A stretch of 64,000 nucleotides of DNA from Collybia mongolica (taxonomy: Eukaryota > Basidiomycota > Agaricomycetes > Agaricales > Clitocybaceae), in assembly GCA_013420905.1 (NCBI GenBank), contig JAAXNY010000001.1:6386001-6450000 (forward strand), in the 5' to 3' direction. The translations under genes were made by a program, and so were the position numbers. Of the stretch, positions 2,988-21,800 are shown piece by piece. Numbering within the stretch: position 1 is the first letter of the stretch; each line of letters starts with the position of its first letter. The notes beneath the pieces were generated by a model. The model was given only the letters and a program-made list of their open reading frames with translations, had not been told where the DNA came from and made no database searches.

Positions 2988-3020
2988 TTACCCCCCTTCT
3001 AGGTTCGCGTGTCTTCACGC
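2988..3020 (-). other. Severed 3' end of Gypsy-1 pol plus polypurine tract
   Basis: Read on the minus strand, 3020-2999 continues the chromodomain-side end of pol that breaks off at 18855: five further codons and then TAG at 3001-2999. The purine tract follows directly and abuts the LTR. This shows the Gypsy-2 insertion removed only the last few residues from the reading frame; the frame now meets TGA at 18854-18852 inside the Gypsy-2 LTR. The last four bases, ACGC, are the target duplication repeated at 18855-18858. Confidence 0.85.
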
Positions 3021-4236
3021 TGATAGGGCCCGAAATTGTTTGCACTTATAAAGTCAACAAGTAAGGCTATTAGTGTCATTTCTAATAACCAAGTAAGCAG
3101 TAATAAAGGATTAGAGTCGAGCTCCGAGACGGCTAATCAGAGTGAACTAGTCTAATGGATAATACACTATCAGTACAGAGGACTATGAGTATGGTCTATT
3201 ATTAGTCCTATTCACCATGCCCGGTTACAACCTCGGTGTCTTAGTTCATAAGTAACCGTTGTAGTATGATATCATTAGTCCGGGGATCATCATTAATAGG
3301 AGAAGTAATTGTAAATTCGGGACTTGCACAACCCGATCCTAGTCAGGGGTACTTGGTGTTAACTACCGGAAGTGACGGGACACCGTGAATAGCAACCAGG
3401 ACAATCAGGAGGAGTAAACGACAGTGCCGCGCTGTTTTAATAACAGAGCGCGCGGTCGGGACTTGATAAGAGTTTAGCCAGCTCTTTCAATATTTGATAA
3501 GTAACCAGTAAACGACATAATTGGCACGCATGGCGCGCGCGCCAAGTTGTAGTAGACGCGTCAGTATTGAATACAGATTCTTGGCGCGCGGGAGCGCGGT
3601 TCCGTGTAAAATTTACAATTCCATATGATATTTAGTTTGTACATTATAAATAGACTGTAGATGAGTAGCGCTAAGGCAAGGAATCTTGCCCCCACTTCGC
3701 GCTACGATAGAGTATACAAATCACATTTGTTAAAAACACTATTGCGTGCCCGAATTAAGGATCAGATTGCTTCAACATGTCTTGATTGGAATTGATTGAA
3801 GAACTACAGAATTAAAGAGACTTAGTTCACTTGGAACTTAGTATTGTATTGTCCGTTGGAATTACTAGGCACTTGGCCTTAGTGCACTTGGCACTGTATT
3901 GTTTGATAAGTCGCTTGGACTTACAGATCCGTTTGGGATCATTAATAATTGAACGTACACTTGGTACCCAGTCTATTGGATCGAGAAATATTATAAATAT
4001 ACCTAGCAGGTTTATAAACCTGTGTTGAAGCTTTTGTCTGAATCAAACCCGTTGGGAGATCATTGAAAAGGGCTTTGGCTAGTACTATTCAAAGCTTAGT
4101 GCTTCTAAGCACTTGAACCCGAACTCAAAACAGGCGATTCCTACTGTTCGTGTGTTGATTGTTAAGTTTGGTGTGTGTGTGTAAGGGATTACATTTCATA
4201 GCATCAGCGCACTTATAGCCCAGGAGCCCCCTTTCA
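3021..4236 (+). repeat. 5' LTR of Gypsy-2
   Basis: 1,216-bp LTR from TGATAGGGCC to GAGCCCCCTTTCA. A TATA box (TATAAATA) lies at 3645-3652. About 100 bp upstream is a GC palindrome GGCGCGCGCGCC (3532-3543) embedded between TTGGC and GCCAA. A 65-codon open frame at 3831-4028 recurs in both LTRs and is probably chance. Four differences from the 3' LTR were found, all CpG transitions. Confidence 0.95.
3645..3652 (+). promoter_or_regulatory. TATA box of the Gypsy-2 5' LTR
   Basis: TATAAATA in the middle of the LTR, where an LTR promoter is expected. In the 3' LTR the same box (ending at 16660) is where the Tc1 element inserted, using the final TA as target. Confidence 0.65.
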
Positions 4237-4692: not shown

Positions 4693-6204
4693 ATGACTGA
4701 ACCCCCTCGTAAATATATGCCCCAACCAGGCGTCCGTGATGCACCAGTATTCAAAGGAAAAGAGCCCACGGGTTTAATCCGGTTTCTGGAGCGAATGGAG
4801 GTCCTATGGAAGGAGTGTAACATTACAAATGATGAAGAAAAGAAGTTAATGTTGGGAAAATACGCAGACCTACAATCAGAGAATGAGTGGAGGGCATTAG
4901 ACCACTATAAGACAGGCACTTGGACGGATTTCAAGACAGAGTTGATCTCTAGTTATCCGGAAGCACTCGATCAAGTAGAAGGATCAGTAGCCAAGTTAGA
5001 GGCAGTGTGTCGCGCCAACCCACGTATTGGAGTAACCGATGAGGCCGCGCTGAAAAAGCTGAAGCGTGAATTCAAAGCAGAATCTATTAAACTCTTGGGA
5101 GTTAGGCCACCTATTATCTCTAACCGTGAATTAGTTACCAAGTTCTTGGGATGTCTAGACGAAGTCTTCAGATCCCAAGTACAAGGAAGGCTAACCCTGC
5201 TAGGGAATAATCAGTCTAATGCTACACAGGCAGGACAAGCCGTTGCTACAAACAACCGAGCAGATCCTAATACTATTGCCGAAGCCGCCGCGCTCGCGCG
5301 ACGAAAAGGGGATCAGTACGATCTGGAGGAAGTTATAGCAACTGCAATCAGCATTTCTGAAGGTGTAGCCAACATGAATATTCCAGACACAAATAGATCG
5401 TTTATAACGTCCGTAACAGCAACAGCAGCGCCCAAAATCAAAGTAGAGATGGATGAAATAAAACAACAAATAGTTAATTTGTTAGACCGTCTCCAAGTAA
5501 ATGAGAAGAATACGAGGAGTGGATTCGAGGATGTAATGAAAGCGCTTCAACAAGCAACTGTTCAGAACCATGCCACGAATAGCGCACCCCAGCAGCATCA
5601 GTATCAGAATCAGTACGGAAAGCCTAAAGAAGGACAACCGCAAAGACCAAATGCGTATAAATGTCACTACTGTTTTACACCCGGACACTTCATAATGGCC
5701 TGTCCCGAGAAACAGAAACATTTTGAGGAAGGGAAAATAAAAACCAACGCAAATGGAGGAGTATGCTTACCAGACAGATCATATATTCCAAGAGAACCAG
5801 AAACGGTATCATTGAAAGATAAAGTGGAACACTTCCATTCAAAGAAGGTAGCGGCCCTTTATTACGGAGATGTCACAGAAGGACCCGCTCCAGGAGTATT
5901 GTCCGTTATGCAGTCACATAATGCAGTAGACAATAGTAACGACATTGGAACCTTGAAAGCCATAATGGCACAAATGGCACAATTTCAAGCGCAACAAATG
6001 TTAGGACAACAGAGCGTGCAAACCGCGCTGCCAGTAGCGCCTCAGATGCAGAAACAGGAATATATAAATAATAACTATAATCCTACGGCAAAGAGCGCGC
6101 CGAACCCTGACATAGTAGCCTTACAAGCACAAATGAGGACTTTATTAGGGCAGGTAGCAGAACTCAATAACCAAAACAAGGTTAAAGAGTCGGGTTTCAA
6201 TTAG
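4693..6204 (+). CDS. gag: Gypsy-2 Gag polyprotein
   Basis: 503-residue capsid/nucleocapsid precursor that would form virus-like particles. The N-terminal half carries a retrotransposon-Gag type helical region. A single CCHC zinc knuckle, CHYCFTPGHFIMAC (C-x2-C-x4-H-x4-C), lies near residues 325-338 and should bind the genomic RNA. The C-terminus is rich in Gln and Asn. Six bases before the TAG stop is the heptamer GGGTTTC in the right phase for -1 slippage into pro. Start chosen as the first ATG of the frame, but the frame is open upstream to 4345 without another ATG. Confidence 0.92.
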   Translation: MTEPPRKYMPQPGVRDAPVFKGKEPTGLIRFLERMEVLWKECNITNDEEKKLMLGKYADLQSENEWRALDHYKTGTWTDFKTELISSYPEALDQVEGSVAKLEAVCRANPRIGVTDEAALKKLKREFKAESIKLLGVRPPIISNRELVTKFLGCLDEVFRSQVQGRLTLLGNNQSNATQAGQAVATNNRADPNTIAEAAALARRKGDQYDLEEVIATAISISEGVANMNIPDTNRSFITSVTATAAPKIKVEMDEIKQQIVNLLDRLQVNEKNTRSGFEDVMKALQQATVQNHATNSAPQQHQYQNQYGKPKEGQPQRPNAYKCHYCFTPGHFIMACPEKQKHFEEGKIKTNANGGVCLPDRSYIPREPETVSLKDKVEHFHSKKVAALYYGDVTEGPAPGVLSVMQSHNAVDNSNDIGTLKAIMAQMAQFQAQQMLGQQSVQTALPVAPQMQKQEYINNNYNPTAKSAPNPDIVALQAQMRTLLGQVAELNNQNKVKESGFN

Positions 6205-7415
6205 GTCCGATGAAGGAGGCTAAGGAACACGCTAGACCTACGACTAGGTCGCGTTCCAAGAGACAGCCAGAGGACCGAAGTAAAAATAGAAATAGTCGTC
6301 AAGAAAGTAACAATTCAGAGAGTAGTCAGGATAGTAGTGAAGAGGAGTTGGTAGCGCCGTCTCCTAGTAAAAAGAAAGTAAAATTTGTTGAACCATCAGT
6401 AAAGTCCCCAGTACGAAAAGAATTACCCTACATCGATGTGCCCGTGGTACCCTACATACCCCGGAGAACGGAACGCAACCCTGAACCAGTTGATCCGCTA
6501 CCTAATTTTAACACTAAGCGCGGTCCGACTTATGAAACTAAGTCCCCGATAGAAGTAAAATTAAAAGGTGGCGATATAATTGCTAAAGTGTTAGACAACC
6601 CTATCACATTGACCACGGGAGAGTTAATGGGCTCGTCAAAAACCATTAGAGATGGAATAAAGAATATTGTAACTGCCAGACGTAAGTCCCTTACCCAAAG
6701 GGACGCTAACTTGCAAATAAACGGAATAGATGAGGAAGACGTCTTACCCTTTGGAGGGGACTGGGAACTTGATGATAACTACTTACGGCATGACGCGCTA
6801 CCAGTAGAGTCAATCCCATTCCAGTCTTTCGTCATCTCAGAGTATGACCGCAGCGGAATACCTAAGGGATCTATAATATGCGGGGACCCAGTCCTACAGT
6901 ATTTAGAATCTTTACCAGCCGGGGAAGAGCCCAAACAGTTGTATGTAGCAAAAGAATCGGCCTCTTTGCGCGCAGTATATCCAGTAATAAATGGGGTAGG
7001 AACGGAGGAATCTTTATTAGATGGGGGATCCCAAATAGTATCAATGGCTAAACAAACGGCTTTAGACTTGGATATTTCATGGGATCCGGACGTTGTCATA
7101 CACATGCAGAGTGCTAATAAACAAGTGGAGAAAACAGCGGGATTAGCGCGCAATGTCCCTTTCTTGTTTAATGACATGGCCATCTACCTCCAAGTACATA
7201 TTATAAATTCACCCGCATACAAAGTATTGCTCGGGAGACCGTTTGATACGCTCACGGAAAGTCAGATCAAAAATGCTCGGGACGGGGGACAAGTAGTCAC
7301 TATCACGGACCCTAACACGGGACGAAGGTGTACTATTCCTACCCATGCAAAGGGATCACCGCCTAAGCTGTTGAAAAGACAACCGGAGCAGGATTTTCGG
7401 CCTTCGATGAATTAA
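6186..7415 (+). CDS. pro: Gypsy-2 protease (Pro) frame
   Basis: Open in the -1 frame relative to gag from 6186; the first ATG is at 6210, six bases after the gag stop, giving 401 residues. The N-terminal third is basic and low-complexity. A retropepsin-like domain occupies roughly residues 255-370: [12 protein letters not shown] resembles the D-S/T-G catalytic loop of retroviral aspartic proteases, here with DGG, and a later VLLGRPFD matches the conserved hydrophobic-GR/D motif. Expression is probably by ribosomal frameshifting at 6192-6198, although re-initiation at 6210 is possible. Overlaps the pol frame by 49 bases at its 3' end. Confidence 0.88.
6192..6198 (+). other. Predicted -1 ribosomal frameshift site, gag to pro
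   Basis: GGGTTTC read as TCG GGT TTC AAT TAG in the gag frame fits the X-XXY-YYZ rule: shifting back one base gives GGG TTT CAA TTA, which continues into pro. The gag stop follows six bases later. I have not identified a downstream pseudoknot by eye. Confidence 0.65.
7367..7415 (+). other. pro-pol overlap, likely second -1 frameshift
   Basis: The pol frame opens after a TAA at 7364-7366 and pro ends with TAA at 7413-7415. Within the 49 bases there is no textbook XXXYYYZ heptamer. The best candidate is the T run in GATTTTCGG (7392-7400), where a P-site TTT codon could re-pair with TTT one base back. Confidence 0.45.
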
Positions 7416-10400
7416 TCCAAAGTGATCAAGGAGAGCTAGCCGTAGAAATTGCTGAAGATGAGGACGGGAACTTTATTATAACGGGTTATAGACACCCTAC
7501 TGATAAGCGGAATTTTGGTCACAAAGAACTTAGAGATGTCTTTTTGTCTAGAAGTGATGTAAACATGAATAGTACAGTACCTGAACGCGAATTACTAGCC
7601 ACATACTTGGCTTCCGTAGATGAGCGCGATGGACCAGTAATAAACTACGAGCAGAACAGTAGGGACCCAGCAAGCACACCCACTAGACCGCTGACATACG
7701 CTCAAGAACAGCCCATGATCAATAAAGCTTTAAGTAAATTAAAGCAGTGGCAAATTGGCACAAACGAGCGCGGTCTTGGAACGGCAACAAGTGAAAAGTG
7801 TAATATTGAGACCATGGATCAGCTAGTAGGAAAGAAGTATAAACCAGTACATTTGAAAACAAAACCAACACTGGCGGACCTGCCTGATAAATTTAGAATT
7901 ATCAGAGATATAAAGGGCGACCCTTTAGCAGCCCTACCAGTTCTAACGCCTAACCCACCTCCGTTTAAACCAACTGGGAGGTACACTGAGGAAAGGCGCG
8001 CGGAATTCCAAAGAGTACACGAAGAAGAAAGCTTTTTAAAACCTAAAGAGATGGATATAATCCACGACTTTATGTGCAAACATAATGATGGTTTTGCTTG
8101 GAATGATAGTGAGCGCGGTAGTTTTAAGAAGGAATATTTTCCTCCCGTCGAAATACCAGTAGTCCCACATACGCCGTGGACAGAGAGGAACATTAGAATC
8201 CCACCAGGAATCTATGAAGATGTTTGTAAAATCATCAAGACAAAAATTGATGCAGGAGTCTATGAGAGATCCAATTCATCATACAGGTCTAGATGGTTTA
8301 CCGTATTAAAGAAAGGCCCAGGAAAGAAGCTTAGAATTGTACATAGTCTAGAACCACTGAATGCAGTCACAATAGCGCACTCGGGTCTACCACCCACTAC
8401 CGAAGAACTAGCAGAACACTTCGCAGGGCGCGCTTGTGGCGGAATGATGGATCTATATGTAGGATACGATGAGAGGCCTTTAGCAGAAACCTCGCGCGAT
8501 CTAACCACGTTCCAAACACCATTTGGCGCGCTGAGATTAGTAACACTCCCTATGGGATGGACGAATTCTGTTCCAATATTTCATGACGATGTCACGTACA
8601 TCCTACAGGATGAGGTACCACATGTCACAATACCCTATATTGATGATGTACCCGTGCGCGGTCCAGCAACGCGTTACGAACTACCGGACGGAACAGAAGA
8701 AGAGCTACCTGGTGCTCCAGGTGTTAGGCGCTTCTTCTGGGAACATATGCAAAATGTAAATCGCGTCGTACAGAGAATGAAGTATTCTGGAGGAACATTT
8801 TCAGGATATAAGTCTATGTTATGCGCAAGTGAAATTCTAGTGGTAGGACATAGATGTACATATGAAGGACGGAAACCTACTACAGATAGAATCGGTGTAG
8901 TTGAAAGATGGGGACCATGCAAAGATGTCAGTGAAGTACGCGCTTACATGGGAACTATTGGTGTATGCAGGAATTTCATTAAAGACTTCGCCCGTATAGG
9001 TCAACCAATTCAAAAGTTAACTAGGAGTAGTGAACCTTGGATATGGGGGCCTGAGCAAGAAGAAGCGCAGCAGCTATTATTAGACGCACTTAAAAATAGC
9101 CCCGCGCTCCGTCCAATTAATTACACCTGGAATACGCCAGTAGTACTGTCAGTAGATACGTCATGGAAAGCCGTAGGCTACTATATCTACCAGGAAGACC
9201 CTGATATACCTGGAAGAAAGCACTATGCTAGATTTGACTCGATAACTCTGAATGAGCGCGAAGCGCGCTTCTCACAACCCAAACGAGAGCTATTCGGATT
9301 AATGAGAGTTCTAATGGCATGTTATTATTGGTTTATTGGAGTACGAAATTTGGTAGTGGAAACGGATGCAAAGTACATTAAGGGGATGTTATCAAACCCA
9401 AGTTTAGGACCTAATGCAACGGTAAATAGGTGGATCGATAGGATACTTATGTTCCACTTTACTTTGGTTCATAAAGCTGGTAAAGGCTTTGGCCCAGACG
9501 GTCTGTCAAGACGCGACGCGCGGCTAGGGGATCCTGTCTACCCGGACCCAGACGATGGTTACGACGAACCCTCAGGTCCTTTAAGGTTTATCAACCCAAC
9601 GGAAGGATTGGATGACCCTTTGGAACTGTCAGACTTTAAAGAGGAGATCGACACGCGCGGCGGATATCTATTCCAACTTGCAAAGGAAATCTCTGATTTT
9701 GAAGTGGAAGTAAACAATGCCTGGGCTGGTGAAGCAGCATTTATCGGAGAAGTAAAACAGCACTTAGGTTTAGGACGGTTCGGTATTCAAAGAGAAGCTT
9801 ATCTAAAGCAACTTGTAAATACTACTGTCATACCCAATGAAAAGTTTAAATACGACCCTAATGTAAGGGAAGTATATGATGAGTCTAAACGGACACCTAC
9901 GGCACAGGAACAGGATAAAAACCTACCTTTAATAAAAGAATGGTTAAAAAGACCACAAAAGAGACCAAAAGGAATGACAGATCGCGCCTACCTAAAGTTT
10001 GCAAGGCAGGCGTCTAATTTCTTTTTGGATCCAGAAGGCAGGATGTATAGGAAAAATATCAATAGCGCGCACCAGCTTGTTGTTGATAAAAATCACCGAA
10101 CATATATGATGAAGGCGTCGCACGATTCTGTTGGACATAGGGGTTTCTATGCAACAAAATCTTTAATAGATAAAAGATTTTGGTGGCCAGAAATGGAACG
10201 CGATGTATCATGGTATGTGAAGTCATGTCACATCTGTCAGACAAGGCTTTTAACTTTGTTGAGAATCCCTCCTGTTATAACCCACACACCGTCTATATTC
10301 CAAGTATTGCATGCGGACACCATGTATATGAGCCCATCGTCTAACGGTTATAAATACATTGTCCAAGGAAGATGTGCGCTGTCTTCATGGATGGAAGGCG

Positions 10401-11410
10401 CGCCCCTCAAATCTGAGGACGGCAAGACCTTGGGAAGGTGGCTGTTCGAAGAAGTAATTTGTAGATGGGGTTCTCTAACGGAAATTGTAACGGATAATGG
10501 TCCTGCCTTTGTCGCAGCCAAAGCGTGGCTGGAATCCAAGTATGGTATTACAGGAATAAGTATATCACCATACAATTCCAAAGGAAATGGGATCGCCGAG
10601 CGCGCACATTGGGATGTGCGTCAAGCTGTCTTCAAAGCTACAGGTGGTGATGTAAAGAAGTGGTACTACTTCTTCCACCATGTAATGTGGGCTGACAGGA
10701 TTACTATACGGAGAGGGACGGGTTGCTCCCCCTATTTTATGATTACGGGCGCGCACCCAACCTTACCGTTAGATATCATTGAAGCCACTTGGTTAGTAAA
10801 GTTACCAGGAAAAATATTGACTACAGAGGAACTCATTGGGTTTAGAGCGCAGGCTCTAGCTAAGCACGTCCAGCATGTGGCCGATATGAGGAAACGTATC
10901 AATATAGAAAAACGAAGGAGACTATTACAGTATGAGAAGGATCACAGCGCGACCATCAGAGACTATGATTTCAAACCAGGAAGTTTAGTACTAGTTAGAA
11001 ATACTGAGGTCGAAAGTTCGCTCGATAAAAAGCTGAAGCCACAGTACCTGGGACCAATGATAGTCCTGAGACGAAACCGCGGGGGAGCCTATATTGTTTG
11101 TGAAATGGATGGATCGGTGTGGCAACATAAAGTGGGGGCATTTAGGGTTATTCCCTATTTTGCTAGGAGTACAATTGAACTGCCGGATAATCTGCAAGAT
11201 CTAATAGACATCTCTAGCGAAACATTAAATGCTTTAGTGGAATCGAAAGATCCCGCTAATAGACAAGTTTATAAGGAGCGTGACTATACCTTTGACAGAG
11301 TCCAATTGGATCAGTCCGATTCAGAGTCAAGCTCTAGTGAAAACACTGAAGAGGGGATAGCGCCGGCGCTACCACAAACTACTATGTCACACCGGAAGTT
11401 GCATAAGTGA
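7367..11410 (+). CDS. pol: Gypsy-2 Pol: reverse transcriptase, RNase H, integrase
   Basis: Open from 7367, again in the -1 frame relative to the preceding ORF and overlapping pro by 49 bases, so a second frameshift is likely; no conventional ATG start exists near the beginning. Domains in order (residues counted from 7544): linker; reverse transcriptase with the catalytic motif YIDDV near residue 366; RNase H starting at SVDTSW near 543; integrase with an HHCC zinc-binding domain ([10 protein letters not shown] ... CHICQ) near 865-900, and the DDE core [15 protein letters not shown] and the Glu in [11 protein letters not shown]; then an SH3-like C-terminal region and an acidic, Ser-rich tail. 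No chromodomain is seen, unlike Gypsy-1. No internal stop or frameshift. It should copy the element RNA and insert the cDNA. Confidence 0.93.
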
Positions 11411-11556: not shown

Positions 11557-12934
11557 TCAAGCAGATATGAAGTCGTCTTCAACCTCGGGCAAGGGCACAT
11601 CAGCCGGAGCTACCTCCTCTTTATCATTGTCATCCTGGTCATGGACTTCGGTAGCGCTTGCAGTGGCAGCCTCGTCAGAGCCTCCCTCCAGAGCGGCCTC
11701 GTTCATTAGACCGTTGAGGCGAGTAACCTCGTCCATAGTGGCGTCACGACGCTTCAATAAGAAGGACACTGTATGACTGATCTCCTCCAACTCAGCGCGG
11801 TAGTTTAAAAGCATCCTACCGAGGGCTTGCTTGGTGTGTGACAAGGGATCGCCCGCGTCAGCAATCAAGCGCGCCCGCGCTAAGACTACATCGTGCTCCT
11901 TGGAGGGACGGAAGTCAATAAAGACACGAGTATCTGATACACAGTCAGTATAAAAATAGAACCATCTATTATTAGAAAACGTACCCTCAGCAGATGCCTT
12001 TGGATCTTCATCCGGGGTGTCCTGCCTCGTACGCTTTTTGGGACGAAGAGTGCTGCCGCGGTTGAGCTCGGAACGCTTACCGTCCTGTAGGAATAAGAAA
12101 CAAAGTAATAGACAGAGCAAAAACAAGAATGGGTACCTTGATGGCAGCCTTTTCAGCCTTAGTCCTTTTGACACGGGGAACCTTAATGTTCTCCTTCTCC
12201 TTGCGACTACGGGTGATTGGTCCTTCACTAAGGAGACGACTAGTCACTGGCCCAGAGACAGTAGCGCTAGCCGTAGCGCCGGAATCAATGACCATATTCT
12301 TGAGTAAAGAAGAGACGCCATTGAGTATGTCGCGCACTGACAGCGCGGTAGCTAAAAAGAAACATACCGAGTCAGTACCAGACATTTCAATGTCACCATC
12401 ATATTCACCGCCAGCAATGACCTCGCCTGGAATAGCGGGACTATCCGCATCACCACCAGTAGCAGGGACCTAGTACCAGAAAACCATGGTTTAAGAACAG
12501 TACAGTGCAAGATAAGGTAAAAAGCGCGCACCGCGGTTTGAGACAGGTGCTCGGTGTGGACCTTTTCACGGTGACGGTGAATAGCGGCAGTAAGAGTCAC
12601 AATGTTGCGGTAGACGGGCTCTTGAAGTAACTCGGGGTATACATGTTGTAGTCCCTGGAATGCTTTACGGACGCCAAAGATAACATTCTGCCAGGACCGC
12701 TCCGTCAAAACCATTTTGGACTCAGTCAGGAGTAGCTGTAAATTGTAAAAGTTGTTATGATAACGGCGTATATAAGTTAATTGGTAAAAAGTGTACCGCG
12801 GTTTCGCCTAACTTCTGGACGCTGACCCTTTGTTCAACAAGGGTGTCCATCGATAAACGAGCTTGAAAGGTGTGCCACTGAGCTTGGACCATCTTGAAGT
12901 TCTCGATGTCTTGATAGTTGGGGGGGCTAGTCAT
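11557..12934 (-). CDS. Gypsy-2 antisense gene B: basic, coiled-coil protein of unknown function
   Basis: Not a family I recognise. Five exons fit together on the minus strand: 12934-12797, 12735-12532, 12469-12137, 12084-11985 and 11933-11557, with introns of 49-62 bp, all GT-AG. The exon lengths add to 1,152 bases, giving an uninterrupted 383-residue protein that starts MTSPPNYQDIENFKM. The N-terminal part is predicted helical. Two basic clusters (RVKRTKAEKAAIK and RPKKRTRQDTP) look like nuclear localisation signals. The C-terminal 150 residues contain a probable coiled coil and a strongly acidic tail. A TATA box lies about 100 bp upstream of the ATG. The last intron is a multiple of three, so it could also be read through. 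Its place inside an LTR element suggests an accessory role. Confidence 0.7.
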
Positions 12935-13030
12935 AATGATGCAGAGGAAATTGATTCTTCGAACCAGAACGTTGTAAAGAGAGTATAATAGAGTTGGGCG
13001 ATGTCTTGGGACAAAAAGCACAGCCAGTGC

Positions 13031-13040
13031 CCTTTTTATA
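13031..13040 (-). promoter_or_regulatory. TATA box of antisense gene B
   Basis: On the minus strand TATAAAAAGG, 97-106 bp before the ATG at 12934. The position suits a fungal core promoter and argues that gene B has its own transcription start rather than using an LTR. Confidence 0.5.
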
Positions 13041-13628
13041 CCTCTACGACTAGAGAAGTGCTACCCAGTCTCTCATTCGTTGCGCGCGTTCTATCCCCAG
13101 AAAAATCTATACATTTCAACTGAACAGGTCCGAGACGCGTGCCTAATTGAAATGCTGGGCCCAATTAAAAAAAGGAGCTCTGTAAAAATTCATGTGGAGC
13201 GCGGCAGTGTCCGCATGACAACTGGGACAGTTGTTATCAGTGTTGAGGGGGAGATGGGTATAAGCAAAATCGAATTGGAAAAACCTTACCAAGGTTACAA
13301 GGATTGAAATAGATTGTCTATAAAAAGTCAGTGATCGCACCACGGTTTTTAATGATCGAGAGAATTGCACCAGAATTAAACCGTACTATTTATAACTTAA
13401 GTAGCCGGGGCAAGGGTGGAAGCTTTCTTATGAAGACAATAGAACCACAGCCAAATCAATAGCATTGTTTATAGTCCGAGGGACTGTATGTAAGACAAAG
13501 TGTTGGACTTCAATTAATAAAATTGAAGCCCAACGAAAGGTGGGGGAATAAGTGATATGTAAGGGCACTAGGGCCCGGGAAAACACATATAGAAAGAAAA
13601 CGTAGGTGGGGGGGGGGGCGCGGCGCGG
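13041..13628. other. Intergenic stretch between antisense genes A and B
   Basis: Upstream region of gene B and 3' region of gene A. It contains a run of G/C near 13606-13620 (nine or more G) just downstream of gene A's stop. Short open frames at 13080-13307 and 13143-13370 overlap on opposite strands and show no recognisable protein, so I do not call them. Confidence 0.5.
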
Positions 13629-15578
13629 CTACTCCTCCTCGCTGTCAGGCACGGACGCAGAAGATCTTGATGACGAAGAACTGTCATCAACCTCTACTTC
13701 TTCTTCCAAGGGCGGCCAAGGGAGATTCTGGAAGTCCGCGTAGAAGAGGAGGGCGCTCTCCGTGGCTGGCGTAGTCAGCAAGAGGTTTTGAAGGCCCTCC
13801 AGGCCTTCCTCCTCGTACAACCTACCAATGGTGCCAACTATGCGCGCCAACAAGGAGTCGCGCATTTCAAGCGCGCGGTTAGCGGCCTGAATGACCTCCG
13901 CGGCAAGGGTGTCCGCGTCGCCGAGCTGAGCATAGGCTTCAGCAACCGCTAGTAGAATAAGTAAAATCAGTAGTAAACAAAAAGACGGAAAGAAGATGGC
14001 TTACTAGAAATGCCTGCACCAAGCATGGGCCCCAGATCCTCACGGAGCCTAGCGCGCTTCTGGGGAGTGAGGCTGAAGCTGCACTTCCCCTTCTTGGCGG
14101 TGGCGCATTCCACGCATGGTTTATCCCAACCGTTGAAGGTGCACTCAATGTCGCCGCGGGTGGCGCACATCGTGCAAGGATAGCCCACCTAGTAAAAATG
14201 ATCAGTAACAAGAAATAAAGTAGTAATAAACATACGGAAGAGCGCCGCGGCGCAAGGTCAGCCAGCAGGGAGGTAATGGGGGACTGTAGCGGCGTCAGCT
14301 CCCGGTTGGGAACCAGCGCGTGCTTGCGGCGTGTCGCCTGTGCCCTATCCCTAGAGCGAGTGGTCTTACGCGACCGACGAGGAGAAGGGGCCGCGGGAGG
14401 CAACAACTCCGCGAACCCCTCTTGAGCCAACTGGCGGGCGATCTCATCATCGAAGAGCCGAAGTTCAGGGACTTCAACCTTCACCAGCGGCTGCCCAGAG
14501 GACTAAGGAGATAAAGATGAGTAAAAGTAAATGACTTCAAGAGAGAAAAGAGACATACCGGGCCTGCTTCCGAGGGACGCGGCGCGGAAGCACTGCCAGT
14601 CCCCTGGGCGCGCGACATGTCGGACTAGAATTTTGAAATCAAGTCAGCAATAATGTGAAACTCGTAAAGTAAAGGATATACCTGGGGAACCGCACGGCCT
14701 TTGCCCTTGGACCCAGCTGTATGCTTCCGCTTGAGGGGCTATTAAAATAAGTCAACTACCGAAGAAAAGTAATAAAAAGCAGTAATAAACGAACCGCGGG
14801 TACCAAGACCGGGGAGCGCGCCGGCAAGGGCGCGGCGGACCAACTGTCCCGGTACTGATGGTAACGGCGCGGTGCGCCAACCATGCGAGGAGGGACGAGG
14901 AAAGTATCCTGAAAGATACTTTCACCATTGTCGCGCTCGAAGCGCGACCCCACCTGGTCCAGGACTTGCTCCACAGTGGGAGCCTGGCCCTAAAGTAAAA
15001 GGTAGTCAGCTTGACAAGGGCAGGCAGAGTAAAGAAGTAAACAAGTCACTTACCAGAAGAATGGAATTGTGGCCCAGGTCAGTCGATATGACCGTGCGCC
15101 AGGAAGACCACGAAGCCTCGCGCGCGTCGACTGGGATGCGCATCACTTGAAGGTGAAGCGCGCGCAGGAGGAGAATAGCCGGATATGGCAGCGAAAAACG
15201 CGCGCCACGGACCACGCCAGTGATGGCATCCTGAGACCAGTAAATAAGTAAAAGGTTTTAATAAGTAAAAGATGGGCGTACGATGAGCATGGAGCAGTGA
15301 TCGACGAAGTCAATCAACTCGTCGAGGTCAAGGGGGCCCTGATGGTCCATACGGGGCGCGAGTTCCTCGGCCATAATAATCCACCCTTGCTCCATGGCGA
15401 CAAAGACATCGCCCTCGGCATCTTCAAGGAGGTCGGAAAATGAGGGGACCGGCTGGTCCACATAGACCATAGTGGGGGAACGGCCCTCAGTCGGTAGAAT
15501 CGCGGCAGAGAGCGAGAGAGACAGCGCGGAAGGCGAGCGCAGAGCACGAGCCATGGCGGAAGTAGAAGTGGAAGACAT
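13629..15578 (-). CDS. Gypsy-2 antisense gene A: zinc-cluster (Zn2Cys6-like) protein
   Basis: Eight exons on the minus strand: 15578-15282, 15230-15054, 14989-14795, 14738-14682, 14624-14559, 14502-14236, 14188-14005 and 13948-13629. All seven introns are 47-64 bp with GT-AG ends. The exons total 1,563 bases, a 520-residue protein without stops. Near residues 357-387, exon 7 encodes six cysteines spaced C-x2-C-x7-C-x8-C-x2-C-x7-C (CTMCATRGDIEC ... CVECATAKKGKC), close to the fungal Zn2Cys6 binuclear cluster that binds DNA. Upstream are Arg/Lys-rich stretches with nuclear-signal character. The C-terminus is acidic and Ser-rich (DDSSSSSRSSAS). A DNA- or chromatin-binding role is likely; control of the element or the host is a guess. 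A TATA-like box lies 63-72 bp upstream of the ATG. Confidence 0.75.
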
Positions 15579-15640
15579 TTCTGTTTGAAAAGGTTGGAGC
15601 GTTTGAGCAATGCAGATAGCAAAGAGATTTAGAAATGGGC

Positions 15641-15650
15641 TATAAAGTCC
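15641..15650 (-). promoter_or_regulatory. TATA-like box of antisense gene A
   Basis: Minus-strand GGACTTTATA, 63-72 bp upstream of the ATG at 15578. Suggests an own promoter firing away from the 3' LTR. Confidence 0.35.
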
Positions 15651-16028
15651 AAATTGTCTAAAACTTAGCAAGGACGCGAGCTTTTTAAAACGCACAACCC
15701 TGCATTGCGAAGCTCTAAAGAACAAACAGGAGTACCGATCTCTTGCTGAAGTGTCAGAAACATAACGAGAAAAATGTCCAGATGACTGAAATATCTGTAA
15801 AGCGATGTCCAAATGTCAAGTACTCTCTCAGGAGACGTATATAACTGTCACGATCCTGATGGGAAGTAAACCTCTGGGCTCGATCCCAACATCGCGCGCC
15901 TACCTGTCTAAAAGCGGAACCGTTGTAACATTGTACTGAAAGATTAGATGCGTGCAGACCCGAAGTATTGGACCAACCTGCCGGCAAAGAGAGACTGAGG
16001 ACAGTCTACATTTGTGGTATGGGGGAGA
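15651..16028. other. Gypsy-2 3' untranslated segment and polypurine tract
   Basis: No convincing gene. Ends at 16019-16028 with a purine run (GGGGGAGA preceded by TAT) directly before the 3' LTR, the expected primer for plus-strand DNA synthesis. Confidence 0.6.
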
Positions 16029-16660
16029 TGATAGGGCCCGAAATTGTTTGCACTTATAAAGTCAACAAGTAAGGCTATTAGTGTCATTTCTAATAACCAA
16101 GTAAGCAGTAATAAAGGATTAGAGTCGAGCTCCGAGACGGCTAATCAGAGTGAACTAGTCTAATGGATAATACACTATCAGTACAGAGGACTATGAGTAC
16201 GGTCTATTATTAGTCCTATTCACCATGCCCGGTTACAACCTCGGTGTCTTAGTTCATAAGTAACCGTTGTAGTATGATATCATTAGTCCGGGGATCATCA
16301 TTAATAGGAGAAGTAATTGTAAATTCGGGACTTGCACAACCCGATCCTAGTCAGGGGTACTTGGTGTTAACTACCGGAAGTGACGGGACACCGTGAATAG
16401 CAACCAGGACAATCAGGAGGAGTAAACGACAGTGCCGCGCTGTTTTAATAACAGAGCGTGCGGTTGGGACTTGATAAGAGTTTAGCCAGCTCTTTCAATA
16501 TTTGATAAGTAACCAGTAAACGACATAATTGGCACGCATGGCGCGCGCGCCAAGTTGTAGTAGACGCGTCAGTATTGAATACAGATTCTTGGCGCGCGGG
16601 AGCGCGGTTCCGTGTAAAATTTACAATTCCATATGATATTTAGTTTGTACATTATAAATA

Positions 16661-16871
16661 CAGTGGCTCAAAAAACTGCCCCAATGTTTGTACATTTTTG
16701 AAAGATCAATATGGTATGAAGTGCTGACATAAGCAGGGGACCTGGGGTAATTATGTAAGATACTATGACATCGTGGCTGTCCAATGGACCCTGGATCATG
16801 TGATTTGGATCAATATCCATTAAGCTATAAGCCAAACAAAATGGTTACTTATTGGGGCAGTTTTTTGACCC
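16661..16871 (+). repeat. Left terminal inverted repeat of the Tc1 element
   Basis: 211 bp, pairs with 18058-18268 with about nine mismatches by eye. Confidence 0.93.
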
Positions 16872-17021
16872 TTATCTTATTTTCCATTATTCTGGCATTT
16901 ATGATCCAATGCAAGAACATTATGGACTGTGGGAAGAATAAACAATGTCATGTGACTTTATTTGTATCAATTTGACATGTTGGAATTGGTTCAATCATCT
17001 TCTTGACCTCTTACCACCATC

Positions 17022-18041
17022 ATGAAAGCCATTTCTACTGCTCAGCACAATACTGTTGTTTCTCTCCTCAATGAGGGCTATTCTCAGCGTCAAATCAAGG
17101 AGAAAACTGGTCTAGGGAAGGGTACCATCAGTAGGATCAGCAAAGATGTGGATGGAAACAAAGAAAACAACCTTGGTGGCCGCCCCTCCAAGCTGTCTGT
17201 TCGTGACAAACAGTCAATTATTCGTCAAATCAAGTCAGGGAAGCTTGATAATGCAGTTCAGGCTACCCAATTCATCAATGGCATCATCCCCAATCCTGTC
17301 ACACCCCAGACAGTCAGAAATGCACTCAAGGAAAATCAATTTTATGCTGCTACAAAGAGGAAAGCTCCTCTTCTCAAACGAGCCCATCGCATCCGGCGTC
17401 TCCAGTTTGCAAAATATCATGAAAGCTGGACTGTGGAGGACTGGAAAAGGGTTCTATGGACAGATGAGACCAAAATCAATAGGATTGGGTCAGATGGAAA
17501 GGTTTATGTCTGGAAACAAAGGGGAAAACCACCATCTGATAGAACAACATCACCTACTGTCAAACATGGAGGAGGAGGAAACCTCATGGTATGGGGTTGT
17601 ATGGGGTGGAATGGAGTGGGAAAGCTCATAGAGGTGCAGGGGAACATGGACAAGGTTCAATACTGTGAAATTTTGGAGAGTGGAGTTCAGGAAAGTTTTG
17701 AGAAGTTGGAAATGGTGGATGGCGAGCGCTACTTTCAGCAAGATAACGACCCCAAACACACATCTGGACTGGCCACACAGTGGTTTGAAGACAACAACAT
17801 TCAAGTCCTTGGCTGGCCTGCCCAATCCCCTGACATGAATCCAATAGAACACCTTTGGGAACATCTCAAGCGCCGTCTTAAAGAATATCCGACACCACCC
17901 AAAGGAGTACATGAGTTGTGGGATAGATTGGCTGAAGAGTGGGGTGAAATTCCACCAGAGGTATGCCAAAACCTGATAGAAAGTATGCCCAGGCAGATAC
18001 AAGCAGTTATAAAGGCAAAAGGTGGTCATACAAAGTATTAG
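17022..18041 (+). CDS. Tc1-family transposase (DD34E)
   Basis: 339 residues, full length for Tc1 transposases (about 340). The N-terminus carries two helix-turn-helix units (QRQIKEKTGLGKGTISRI near 22-39), which bind the inverted repeats. The catalytic core shows LWTDETK near residue 147, FQQDNDPKHTS near 240 and NPIEHLWEHLK near 275. Thirty-four residues separate the second Asp from the Glu, the DD34E signature. The reading frame is intact with no introns. It should cut and paste the element into TA sites. Start is the only sensible ATG, about 150 bp inside the left repeat. Confidence 0.96.
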   Translation: MKAISTAQHNTVVSLLNEGYSQRQIKEKTGLGKGTISRISKDVDGNKENNLGGRPSKLSVRDKQSIIRQIKSGKLDNAVQATQFINGIIPNPVTPQTVRNALKENQFYAATKRKAPLLKRAHRIRRLQFAKYHESWTVEDWKRVLWTDETKINRIGSDGKVYVWKQRGKPPSDRTTSPTVKHGGGGNLMVWGCMGWNGVGKLIEVQGNMDKVQYCEILESGVQESFEKLEMVDGERYFQQDNDPKHTSGLATQWFEDNNIQVLGWPAQSPDMNPIEHLWEHLKRRLKEYPTPPKGVHELWDRLAEEWGEIPPEVCQNLIESMPRQIQAVIKAKGGHTKY

Positions 18042-18057
18042 ATAGAAAATTAATAGA

Positions 18058-18268
18058 GGGTCAAAAAACTGCCCCAATGAGTAATCATTTTGTTTGGCCT
18101 ATAGCTTAATGGGTTTTGATCCAAATCACATGATCCAGGGTCCATTGGAAAGCCACGATGTCATAGTATCTTACATAATTACCCCAGGTCCCCTGCTTAT
18201 GTCAGCACTTCATACCATATTGATCTTTCAAAAATGTACAAACATTGGGGCAGTTTTTTGAGCCACTG
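18058..18268 (-). repeat. Right terminal inverted repeat of the Tc1 element
   Basis: Reverse complement of 16661-16871; its inner end begins 17 bp after the transposase stop. Confidence 0.93.
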
Positions 18269-18854
18269 TAGACTGTAGATGAGTAGCGCTAAGGCAAGGA
18301 ATCTTGCCCCCACTTCGCGCTACGATAGAGTATACAAATCACATTTGTTAAAAACACTATTGCGTGCCCGAATTAAGGATCAGATTGCTTCAACATGTCT
18401 TGATTGGAATTGATTGAAGAACTACAGAATTAAAGAGACTTAGTTCACTTGGAACTTAGTATTGTATTGTCCGTTGGAATTACTAGGCACTTGGCCTTAG
18501 TGCACTTGGCACTGTATTGTTTGATAAGTCGCTTGGACTTACAGATCCGTTTGGGATCATTAATAATTGAACGTACACTTGGTACCCAGTCTATTGGATC
18601 GAGAAATATTATAAATATACCTAGCAGGTTTATAAACCTGTGTTGAAGCTTTTGTCTGAATCAAACCCGTTGGGAGATCATTGAAAAGGGCTTTGGCTAG
18701 TACTATTCAAAGCTTAGTGCTTCTAAGCACTTGAACCTGAACTCAAAACAGGCGATTCCTACTGTTCGTGTGTTGATTGTTAAGTTTGGTGTGTGTGTGT
18801 AAGGGATTACATTTCATAGCATCAGCGCACTTATAGCCCAGGAGCCCCCTTTCA

Positions 18855-21800
18855 ACGCCGGCGTTGGAACGGGATCTGTGCAAATTGGACGCGTTGTACG
18901 AGTCGCGGTGCTCCGGGGTTGCGTCTGTAGAATTCGGCGACCAACTCGTCCGCATTCACCTTGTCGGCAGGTTCCCAGGTGTTCTGTTTGTAGCTGTAGC
19001 CCTTCCAGGCGATCAGGTACTGCAGCTTGTTCCTGTAAACCCGGCTGTCCATGATCTCCTGAACCTCATAATGTACCTCGCCGTCTATGAGAGTGGGTTC
19101 AGGGACTTCGGTGACCGTTCTACCGGGTATTGGGTCGTGCGGCACAGGTAGGAGTTTGACAACATGGAAGACCGGGTGGATGCGCAATAGCGCCGGCGGA
19201 AGTTTGAGGCGGTAGGCGTGCGATCCAACCTTGGCTTCGATGGGGTAGGGCCCGATGTAGCGGTGAGCCAGTTTCTGCGACGGTCGAGTGATATGAATGT
19301 CGCGCGAATCCAAATACATCCGGTCTCCAACCTGGTAGTCAGGTGTTGGGTTTCGGCGGCGATTGTAGTACATCGCCATCTCGTCCTTGGCTTTGGCTAA
19401 TGCGGCGCGGGCTTCCTCGAGGGTGTCCTTCATTCGGTCGCGGAATTCGTTCGCGGTTTCCAGCCGGGATGGTGCGGTCTGTGGTTCAAAGCCCATGCGT
19501 GGATGTCGACCGGTGTCCAGGAAGAACGGCAAGTGCTGTGTCGAGGAGTGGACGTGGTTATTGTACTGGAATTCGGCGAGCGGTAAAAGGTCGACCCAGT
19601 TGTCCTGTCGCTCGCTGACGAATAACCGGAGATACTGCTCCAGTTCCTGGTTCACTCGCTCGGTCTGTCCGTCTGTCTGTGGGTGGTACGCCGTAGACGC
19701 TGTGAGTTTAATATCAAGCATGCGATATAACTCCCTTGTGAATTCCGCCACGAACTGTACCCCTCGGTCGGAGACCATAGCCTTCGGTAAGCCGTGCAAC
19801 TTCCACACATGCTGGAGGTAAAGCCTCGCCGATCCAAGCGCGGTAATTGTCGTCGTGGTTGGGATGAAGTGCGCGCATTTACCCACCGTGTCCACCACTA
19901 CCATGATCGCATCATGCCCTTGCGACTCGGGGAGTTCCACGATGAAATCCACGCTTGCGACGTCCCAGCAACCTTCCGGAATTGGCAGCAGTTTAAGTTC
20001 GCCGCTTGGAAGTTGACGCTGAGCCTTCGTTCGGAGACAGAGGTCGCATGTCTTGCAGTATTCGCCGATGTAGCGCGACATTTGAGGCCACCAGTAATTG
20101 CGCGATACGAGTTCCAACGTCTTCCATCTTCCGGCGTGTCCCGCAATTCGCGAATTGTGATGTTGCGCAACTATACGTCTGCGAAGGTCAGCGTGTTTTG
20201 GGACGTAGATGCGATCGCGGAAATACAGCAACTCCTGCGCTTCCCTCCACTCTGCGCTCCGAACCGATTTTCCTGCGGACTTCTTCAACTCCTGCGCTGC
20301 CTTCACCACCGCTTCCTCCTGATGTCCCTCGCGATTGCCTCTCCGAATATCCCGCAGAATGTCCCTTTCCTCTCCTTCCACGACCATTCCTTCCAGCGCG
20401 CGGATTGTGAACAACTCCGGTTTGAGGAGGACTAGATCGCGGTTATCCTCGCTTCCATCGCTGTGGTCCGCTCAGCGAGATAGCGCGTCTGGCTTACCCA
20501 TACTTCGTCCGGGCTTGTGGTGCAGCGAGAAGTTGAATCGGGAGAGGTACAGTGACCACCTGGCCTGTCTCCGATTTAGCTTCTGGGACGTCCGGAAGTA
20601 CTCTAGATTTTTGTGGTCTGTCCAGATCTCGAAGTCGTGTTGCGCGCCTTCAAGGAAGTGTCGCCATTCTTCAAGTGCGCGAATGATGGCGAGCATTTCC
20701 TTGTCGTGTATCTCGTAATTCCGCTCGACCGCGTTGAGGCTCTTTGACGAAAACGCGATCGGGTGCCACTTGTCGTCCTCTGGGCTGAGTTGCGAAAGTA
20801 CTGCGCCGGTCGTGAAATCCGAACTATCTGCCTCCACCCTAAACGGCCGGTTGTCGTCTGCGAACATCAGTACCGGTTTAGACGACACCGCTTCCTTCAA
20901 CCCTTCGAATGCCTCCTGCTCTGACTCACCCCACTTCCAAGGCACGTCTTTACCGGTGAGATCAAACAATGGCCGCGCAGTATGGGAGAAGTCGCGAATG
21001 AACTGCCGATAGAAGTTCGTGAAGCCCAAGAAGGACTGCACTTGCTTCTTGTTCGTGGGCGTTGGCCATTCCGCTACTCCGGCAACCTTGACCGGGTCCA
21101 TCTCCGCCTGCCCCTCCGAGATAATGAGCCCCAGATACTCGATTCGGGTCTTCTCGAATTCGCATTTGTCCAGTCGCAGGTACAGTTTATGTTCGTGGAG
21201 TCGCTGGAGAACTAACCTCGTAATTCGGCGGTGTTTGGCGAGTGTCTTTGTGTAGATTAGAATATCATCGATGTAGACACATACCACTCCTTCCATGATG
21301 AGATCGTGGAATATCTCGTTCATCATGGTTTGGAACGTTGCCAGCGAGTTAGTGAGACCAAAGAACATTACCAGGGGCTCAAACATTCCGCGGTTTGTGC
21401 GAAATGCGGCCTTCCACTCATCACCTTCCTTAATTCGGACGTTGTTGTATCCCCAGCGAACGTCGAATTTGGAGAAGTATTTCGCTCCCCGAAGATTGTT
21501 GACGAGGTTGGAGATGAGTGGGAGTGGGTATTTGTTCTTGATCGTCAGCGAATTGAGAACGCGGTAGTCCTGTACCGGGCGTAGCGAACCGTCCTTCTTC
21601 TTGATAAAGAAGAACGGCGAAGCCATTGGCGATTTGGAGGGGCGGATCCGACCAGAGGCGAGGTTCTCCTCGAGGAACTTGTCCAACTCCGCTTGTTCGG
21701 CGACTGAGAGCGGGTAGACCTTGCAGGATTTCCCTTCTGCGTCGCGGACGAGTTCGATTGTGTGGTCCCATGGTCGGCGATCTGGGAGAGCGTTGAAGGA

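Follow-up and report, generated by a model that had tools for sequence, protein, structure and literature searches.

Background

Antisense accessory open reading frames (ORFs) are already known from long terminal repeat (LTR) retrotransposons, with Grande, Retand and Botrytis brtn as examples, and retrotransposition is expected to remove introns. Here we describe two intron-bearing genes, A and B, located antisense to gag-pol in a Gypsy-like LTR retrotransposon of the basidiomycete Collybia mongolica. The element lies in the window, by which we mean the whole analysed stretch of 64,000 nucleotides of contig JAAXNY010000001.1. Frames of both genes are preserved in most of the aligned copies and introns in all of them, and variants shared among copies display a signature of purifying selection.

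In plant Gypsy elements, antisense accessory ORFs form the aORF-3R class, represented by maize Grande (gene23), rice RIRE2 and Retand (ORF4/TRP28) (PMC7264820, PMC11963269; all papers are cited here for excerpts of their text). Like members of this class, A and B are placed between pol and the 3' LTR in orientation opposite to gag-pol, occur in most copies (72 of 97 listed pol loci) and are under constraint similar to that of pol (455 codons compared). Unlike TRP28, which belongs to Pfam family PF04195, A and B match no Pfam family. In further contrast to the plant class, there are two genes here, with seven and four introns; the word "intron" does not occur in the excerpts of PMC7264820 and PMC11963269. 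The former calls for a search for antisense spliced transcripts.

An additional antisense gene of a fungal LTR retrotransposon, brtn, is described in Boty-like elements of Botrytis cinerea (Zhao et al. 2011, as cited in PMC8365987 and PMC7264820). It is a single gene of an ascomycete, and its likeness to A and B is one of description, not of compared sequences. Human T-cell leukaemia virus type 1 (HTLV-1) HBZ and the APH genes of HTLV-2/3/4 are antisense genes with spliced transcripts, and their nuclear proteins restrain viral transcription or replication; APH-3 is also cytoplasmic, and APH-3 and APH-4 are devoid of bZIP (PMC10186651). A and B are likewise antisense genes of a reverse-transcribing element, known from genomic splice sites and from patches resembling a nuclear localization signal (NLS). 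HBZ and APH differ in that they belong to human retroviruses, are single genes and have their promoter in the 3' LTR, whereas B has an internal TATA box; no homology is claimed. Finally, homing endonuclease genes of group I introns, in sense as well as antisense orientation, are reported to occur with spliceosomal introns (PMC9548176). The antisense ones are comparable to A and B as genes with spliceosomal introns in a mobile element, but they encode another protein and are not part of an LTR retrotransposon.

Among the literature listed, intron-bearing antisense genes were found for no LTR retrotransposon of a fungus, nor was there a description of a fungal antisense gene pair with many introns and measured constraint; as subscription journals lie mostly outside this literature, this is weak evidence of novelty.

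Gene models of A and B

The sequence-only reading had drawn two complete gene models in a Gypsy element, located after pol and before the 3' LTR on the strand opposite to gag-pol, and our analysis agrees with this placement (Table 1). Both models close in frame on the minus strand, A from 15578 to 13629 with seven GT-AG introns of 47-64 bp and B from 12934 to 11557 with four GT-AG introns of 51-62 bp. B converges with pol across a gap of 146 bp, and the two genes are arranged in tandem with spacing of about 700 bp.

Frame length by itself barely exceeds what chance would give: the region's longest run without a stop codon amounts to 228 amino acids (aa), and 200 shuffles gave 188 aa (95%) and 251 aa (maximum). 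The case for genes is based on conservation across copies, namely near-constant lengths of exons as opposed to variable introns, preserved splice sites, and a ratio of nonsynonymous to synonymous substitution rates (dN/dS) well below 1.

A TATA-like box had been proposed for each gene. That of B is convincing and conserved, its 17-bp segment being identical in 31 of 32 alignment rows (one row is a duplicate of the window copy) and TATAAAAAG in all 32. Only weak candidates were found for A.

The third exon of B contains, at 12352-12408, a branch-point-like CTGAC together with TTTCTTTTTAG, and 27 bp of this exon have no counterpart in the related protein of Collybia nuda (see below). This 27-bp stretch resembles the 3' part of an intron, and the exon possibly harbours one more short intron. 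Candidate lengths for it are 27, 45 and 57 bp, each divisible by three.

Occurrence of A and B in the genome

A and B are not confined to the copy in the window. DNA search with the A/B region returned 39 matches at no fewer than 38 loci in the 46-Mb genome; at 34 of these loci, 3862 or more of the 4061 bases are matched. The locus count is a minimum, as 38 of 152 first-look candidates were scored. The integrase part of pol was detected at a minimum of 97 loci by protein search, and the C-terminal exon of B at 82 or more. The sequence-only reading had asked whether A and B co-occur with pol of this element. Within this genome they do: B is located on the opposite strand 142-397 bp away at 72 of the 97 listed pol loci, the distance being exactly 153 bp at 68 of them (counted by script), and ten further listed pol loci were found by eye to have B, in one case 11 kb away.

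Sequence was inspected for three of the remaining 15 pol loci (L052, L053 and L054), and all three are internal-deletion derivatives. In L052, the spacer that follows pol is joined by the deletion to sequence within the 3' LTR. In L053, the deletion runs from the end of B into the start of A, beside the LTR, and in L054 it reaches from B's last exon as far as the edge of the LTR. Their integrase sequences are 98-99% identical, and most or all of A/B is missing. They are possibly non-autonomous derivatives.

No free-standing host copy of B was seen among the 82 listed B loci. Ten of these lack a listed pol as direct neighbour: pol is more distant at two, a contig begins at one, and the other seven were inspected. 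Element sequence is present at all seven, in the form of pol pieces (five loci), the last bases of pol with the spacer (one) or the spacer (one).

Six diverged loci (L039-L044) were picked by choice. A is present in L039, L040, L042 and L043, is reduced to its last exon in L044 and was not found in the inspected stretch of L041, and B is present in all but L039. A second B family at about 54% identity was considered and rejected, as the values of 53-57% come from matches read across introns. B exons of L043 aligned singly are 66-81% identical.

Pol loci are denser on small contigs (C12, C14, C20, C21 and others), with 34 loci in about 7.6 Mb compared with 63 in 38.4 Mb. These contigs may represent repeat-rich regions.

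Conservation of frames and introns

To the best-scoring 30 of the 38 A/B loci we added the diverged L040, giving 31 aligned copies, a set biased to young copies. L040 was the only one of the six diverged loci to enter the integrity analysis and the pairwise comparisons; L042 and L043 were excluded, since the changes seen in them resemble decay. The frames of both A and B are open, when spliced as modelled, in 28 of the 31 copies. L034 and L036 are frameshifted, and L038 is cut by a contig end.

The supposition that introns survive transposition is borne out, since all 11 are present in each of the 31 aligned copies. The 3' AG is intact in all copies for every intron, and the 5' GT is lost in a single intron of a single copy (L040). 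Apart from a single in-frame deletion of 9 bp in L024, exons have the same lengths throughout the 28 open copies, whereas introns vary in length. In L019, for example, the fourth B intron is 1 bp shorter, and the frame would break if this intron stayed in. Accordingly, one indel event was counted in exons (2715 bp) and 16 in introns (613 bp; binomial p 2.5e-11). These 28 copies had been chosen for open frames; with the three broken copies added, there are 7 events in exons and 16 in introns (p 1.1e-7). Indel counts for 3' pol were set aside, as missing ends were included in them.

We found no processed or intronless copy of B: all 40 scored B loci (of 123 candidates) match with introns in place. 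Similarly, the junction of exons 6 and 7 of A, one of seven, has no match genome-wide with up to 3 mismatches. Absence of processed copies is neither proof nor disproof of splicing.

Both of the older copies, L042 and L043, combine a frameshifted gene A with an open frame of gene B. They carry many substitutions such as arginine to cysteine or histidine and alanine to threonine, a pattern consistent with C-to-T decay at CpG.

The copies also differ along their length. Some are several per cent off the window copy over 14240-15640, the first exons of A, with nearly identical pol and B. Others differ in the A-B spacer or at the start of B (L020-L037 compared with window positions 12640-15640). 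The copies are mosaics in which diverged blocks assort independently, suggesting that related elements have recombined through template switching or gene conversion.

Selection on A, B and pol

The two frameshifted copies and the one cut by the contig end were omitted from selection counts, L040 was omitted from tests of shared variants, and the 26-copy test was additionally made without L027. The 3' part of pol (455 codons) served for comparison. Ratios of nonsynonymous (N) to synonymous (S) variants were scaled to a neutral simulation (2000 runs) keeping base and CpG class.

Among variants shared by at least 2 of 26 copies, the ratio is 0.20 for A (23 N, 47 S; none of the 2000 simulations as low), 0.18 for B (4 N, 9 S; 4 as low) and 0.16 for 3' pol (3 N, 12 S; 1 as low). 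Singletons, determined in 27 copies, are less constrained (A 0.46, B 0.62, 3' pol 0.55). Stronger constraint on shared variants than on singletons would be the expected outcome of selection that operates while elements transpose and weakens once they have inserted. When A and B were read in wrong frames, ratios of 2.0 to 8.3 were obtained. No stops occur among variants of A and B and two occur in 3' pol, copies with broken A/B frames having already been excluded.

Pairwise comparison of the window copy with L025 gave dS 0.122 and dN 0.019 for A (ratio 0.15), a ratio of 0.18 for B (8 differences) and 0.06 for 3' pol. Ratios of very similar pairs scatter, reaching 1.22 for B on 5 differences, and we therefore relied on pooled variants. 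Checked within this genome, A and B evolve under purifying selection and not neutrally. The strength with which selection maintains them through transposition appears similar to that for the 3' part of pol.

Protein sequences of A and B

Exon 7 of A encodes a six-cysteine motif. The sequence-only reading had called it a zinc cluster. All six cysteines are conserved in 28 of 28 open-frame copies, and A has basic patches as well. The name is a loose one, since canonical Zn2Cys6 spacing is C-x2-C-x6-C-x5-12-C-x2-C-x6-8-C, which the motif misses, and A has no Pfam match. B is basic, with NLS-like patches such as PKKRTR that are found in its C. nuda relative as well.

This relative, hypothetical protein BDZ94DRAFT_1234893, is the one relative of B found by protein database search, with 63% identity over full length. 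Similarity is highest in the N-terminal and C-terminal parts, and the alignment is ungapped over the fourth splice junction of B. Residues 352-452 of A have no protein homologue among 366 candidates. PDB sequence search with the zinc exon gave one chance-level match (E 0.11), and fold searches with its model gave nothing usable. At E up to 10, Pfam revealed nothing near cut-off for the exon 7-8 piece of A or for the C. nuda homologue of B. A bZIP domain as in HBZ is not seen, no Pfam domain being present in A or B.

Proposed role of A and B

We propose, with a probability of about 0.6, that A and B constitute an accessory two-gene module of the element that is expressed antisense, that their introns stay unspliced in sense RNA and that the proteins are likely nuclear regulators similar to HBZ. 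The antisense strand would be transcribed from promoters within the element. B has a clear internal candidate, and A may use its own promoter or one in the 3' LTR. Antisense transcripts would then be spliced and translated. In the sense genomic RNA, the same introns would be read backwards as CT...AC, which are not splice sites; being unspliced there, they would be carried into every new copy. The best reading of intron persistence in all 31 copies is that the genes point the opposite way, and the lack of intron loss in these copies, together with the lack of a processed copy in limited searches, fits unspliced sense RNA. Least certain is what the proteins do. A, with its six-cysteine motif and basic patches, and B, basic and bearing PKKRTR, may be nuclear proteins contacting DNA or chromatin. 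They could tune the cycle of the element by restraining or timing LTR transcription, or by aiding nuclear entry or integration, as HTLV-1 HBZ does in its virus.

Several results weigh against this proposal. Pfam search with A and B at E up to 1 gave nothing near cut-off, and no protein homologue of A was found among the 7996 best candidates scored. AlphaFold models made without alignment are too poor to use, with mean pLDDT (per-residue model confidence) of 40.1 for the C. nuda homologue of B and 60.5 for the zinc exon. B and 3' pol have small numbers of shared variants (13 and 15), and constraint shows that A and B matter to the element without showing how. Moreover, A and B can be lost: three pol copies (L052-L054) have lost nearly all of them by deletion, and some diverged copies lack one gene in the inspected stretch (A in L041, B in L039).

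The same proteins might be accessory without being regulators, acting for instance in packaging, in the targeting of integration or in suppressing host silencing. We consider this less likely, although no DNA-binding domain is recognised in A or B and, as pol has no matched chromodomain, targeting could come from elsewhere. The higher density of pol loci on small contigs can be added on this side, but, as a raw count, it may simply mirror repeat-rich regions. Against this reading, the basic patches and the conserved cysteines point rather to proteins that touch nucleic acid or chromatin. A captured genomic segment would also be expected to bring introns and promoters of its own, and the pair could be host genes taken up by chance and carried as hitch-hiking cargo, with constraint left over from their host function. 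This is improbable, given that no free-standing copy was seen and that 72 of the 82 listed B loci are beside a listed pol; of the other ten, nine show sequence of pol or of an element junction, and the tenth lies where a contig begins. Shared variants are, in addition, constrained about as those of 3' pol.

Antisense transcripts of retroelements may act as RNA, a possibility discussed in PMC7264820 (excerpted text), and the transcript of A and B might do so through double-stranded RNA or silencing control, its coding frames being incidental. Selection, however, follows codon structure, as third codon positions account for 50 of the 71 shared variable sites in A. The bias is reversed in alternative frames, and exons avoid indels that are tolerated in introns. 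Such codon-structured constraint speaks against RNA as the sole explanation, which we regard as highly improbable; RNA could still act alongside the proteins.

Should A and B indeed regulate their element, this would imply separate origins of antisense regulators in retroviruses and in plant and fungal elements. More broadly, and at somewhat less than even odds, basidiomycete Gypsy elements may have independently evolved a strategy like that of HBZ, in which an antisense two-gene module, rich in spliceosomal introns that the sense genomic RNA does not expose, controls their own expression or integration. The role of antisense ORFs in LTR retrotransposons becomes testable in this fungus, whose many young copies can serve as replicates.

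Structure of the host element

Table 1. Features of the element and its antisense genes (positions within the window unless stated otherwise)
Feature	Position	Strand	Description
Window	6386001-6450000 (contig)		part of a 46-Mb genome
Target duplication	3017-3020 and 18855-18858		ACGC, 4 bp, flanks element
5' LTR	3021..4236	+	1216 bp, TG...CA ends
gag ORF	4693..6204	+	503 aa, CCHC zinc knuckle
ORF in protease position	6210..7415	+	401 aa; sub-threshold PF13352 match only
pol ORF	7544..11410	+	1288 aa; order reverse transcriptase (RT), RNase H, integrase
Gene B	11557..12934	-	5 exons, 383 aa, basic patches
Gene B exons	12934-12797, 12735-12532, 12469-12137, 12084-11985, 11933-11557	-	
Gene B introns (4)	12796-12736, 12531-12470, 12136-12085, 11984-11934	-	
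TATA box of gene B	13026..13042	-	GGTATAAAAAGGGCACT; ~100 bp upstream of ATG
Gene A	13629..15578	-	8 exons, 520 aa
Gene A introns (7)	15281-15231, 15053-14990, 14794-14739, 14681-14625, 14558-14503, 14235-14189, 14004-13949		
Gene A exon 7	14005..14188	-	six-cysteine motif C-x2-C-x7-C-x8-C-x2-C-x7-C
Weak TATA-like candidate for gene A	15640-15645		TTATAG
Weak TATA-like candidate for gene A	15680..15697	-	TTTTAAAAAGC; upstream of gene A
Polypurine tract	16016..16028	+	GGTATGGGGGAGA; adjoins 3' LTR
3' LTR	16029..18854	+	TG...CA ends; split by ~1.6-kb Tc1/mariner-type transposon
Tc1/mariner-type transposon	~16661-18270		inside 3' LTR, ~1.6 kb

The element displays the features of Ty3/Gypsy retrotransposons: LTRs with TG...CA ends, target duplication, a polypurine tract, and gag followed by RT, RNase H and integrase in this order. 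It is classed as a Gypsy-like LTR retrotransposon on the basis of this structure and domain order. In Pfam, the pol ORF matches RT_RNaseH, RT_RNaseH_2 and Integrase_H2C2 above cut-offs, with RVT_1 (16.2 versus 29.6) and rve (23.1 versus 32.6) below them, and no chromodomain match is present in it. The gag ORF matches PF13696 with 26.3 bits, slightly below the cut-off of 27. The 401-aa ORF contains a putative protease-like motif.

With the inserted transposon left out of the 3' LTR, the two LTRs differ at 4 of 1216 positions, and this low number indicates that the insertion is young. The Tc1/mariner-type transposon itself has an open transposase frame of 339 aa and inverted arms of 229 bp that are 95% complementary.

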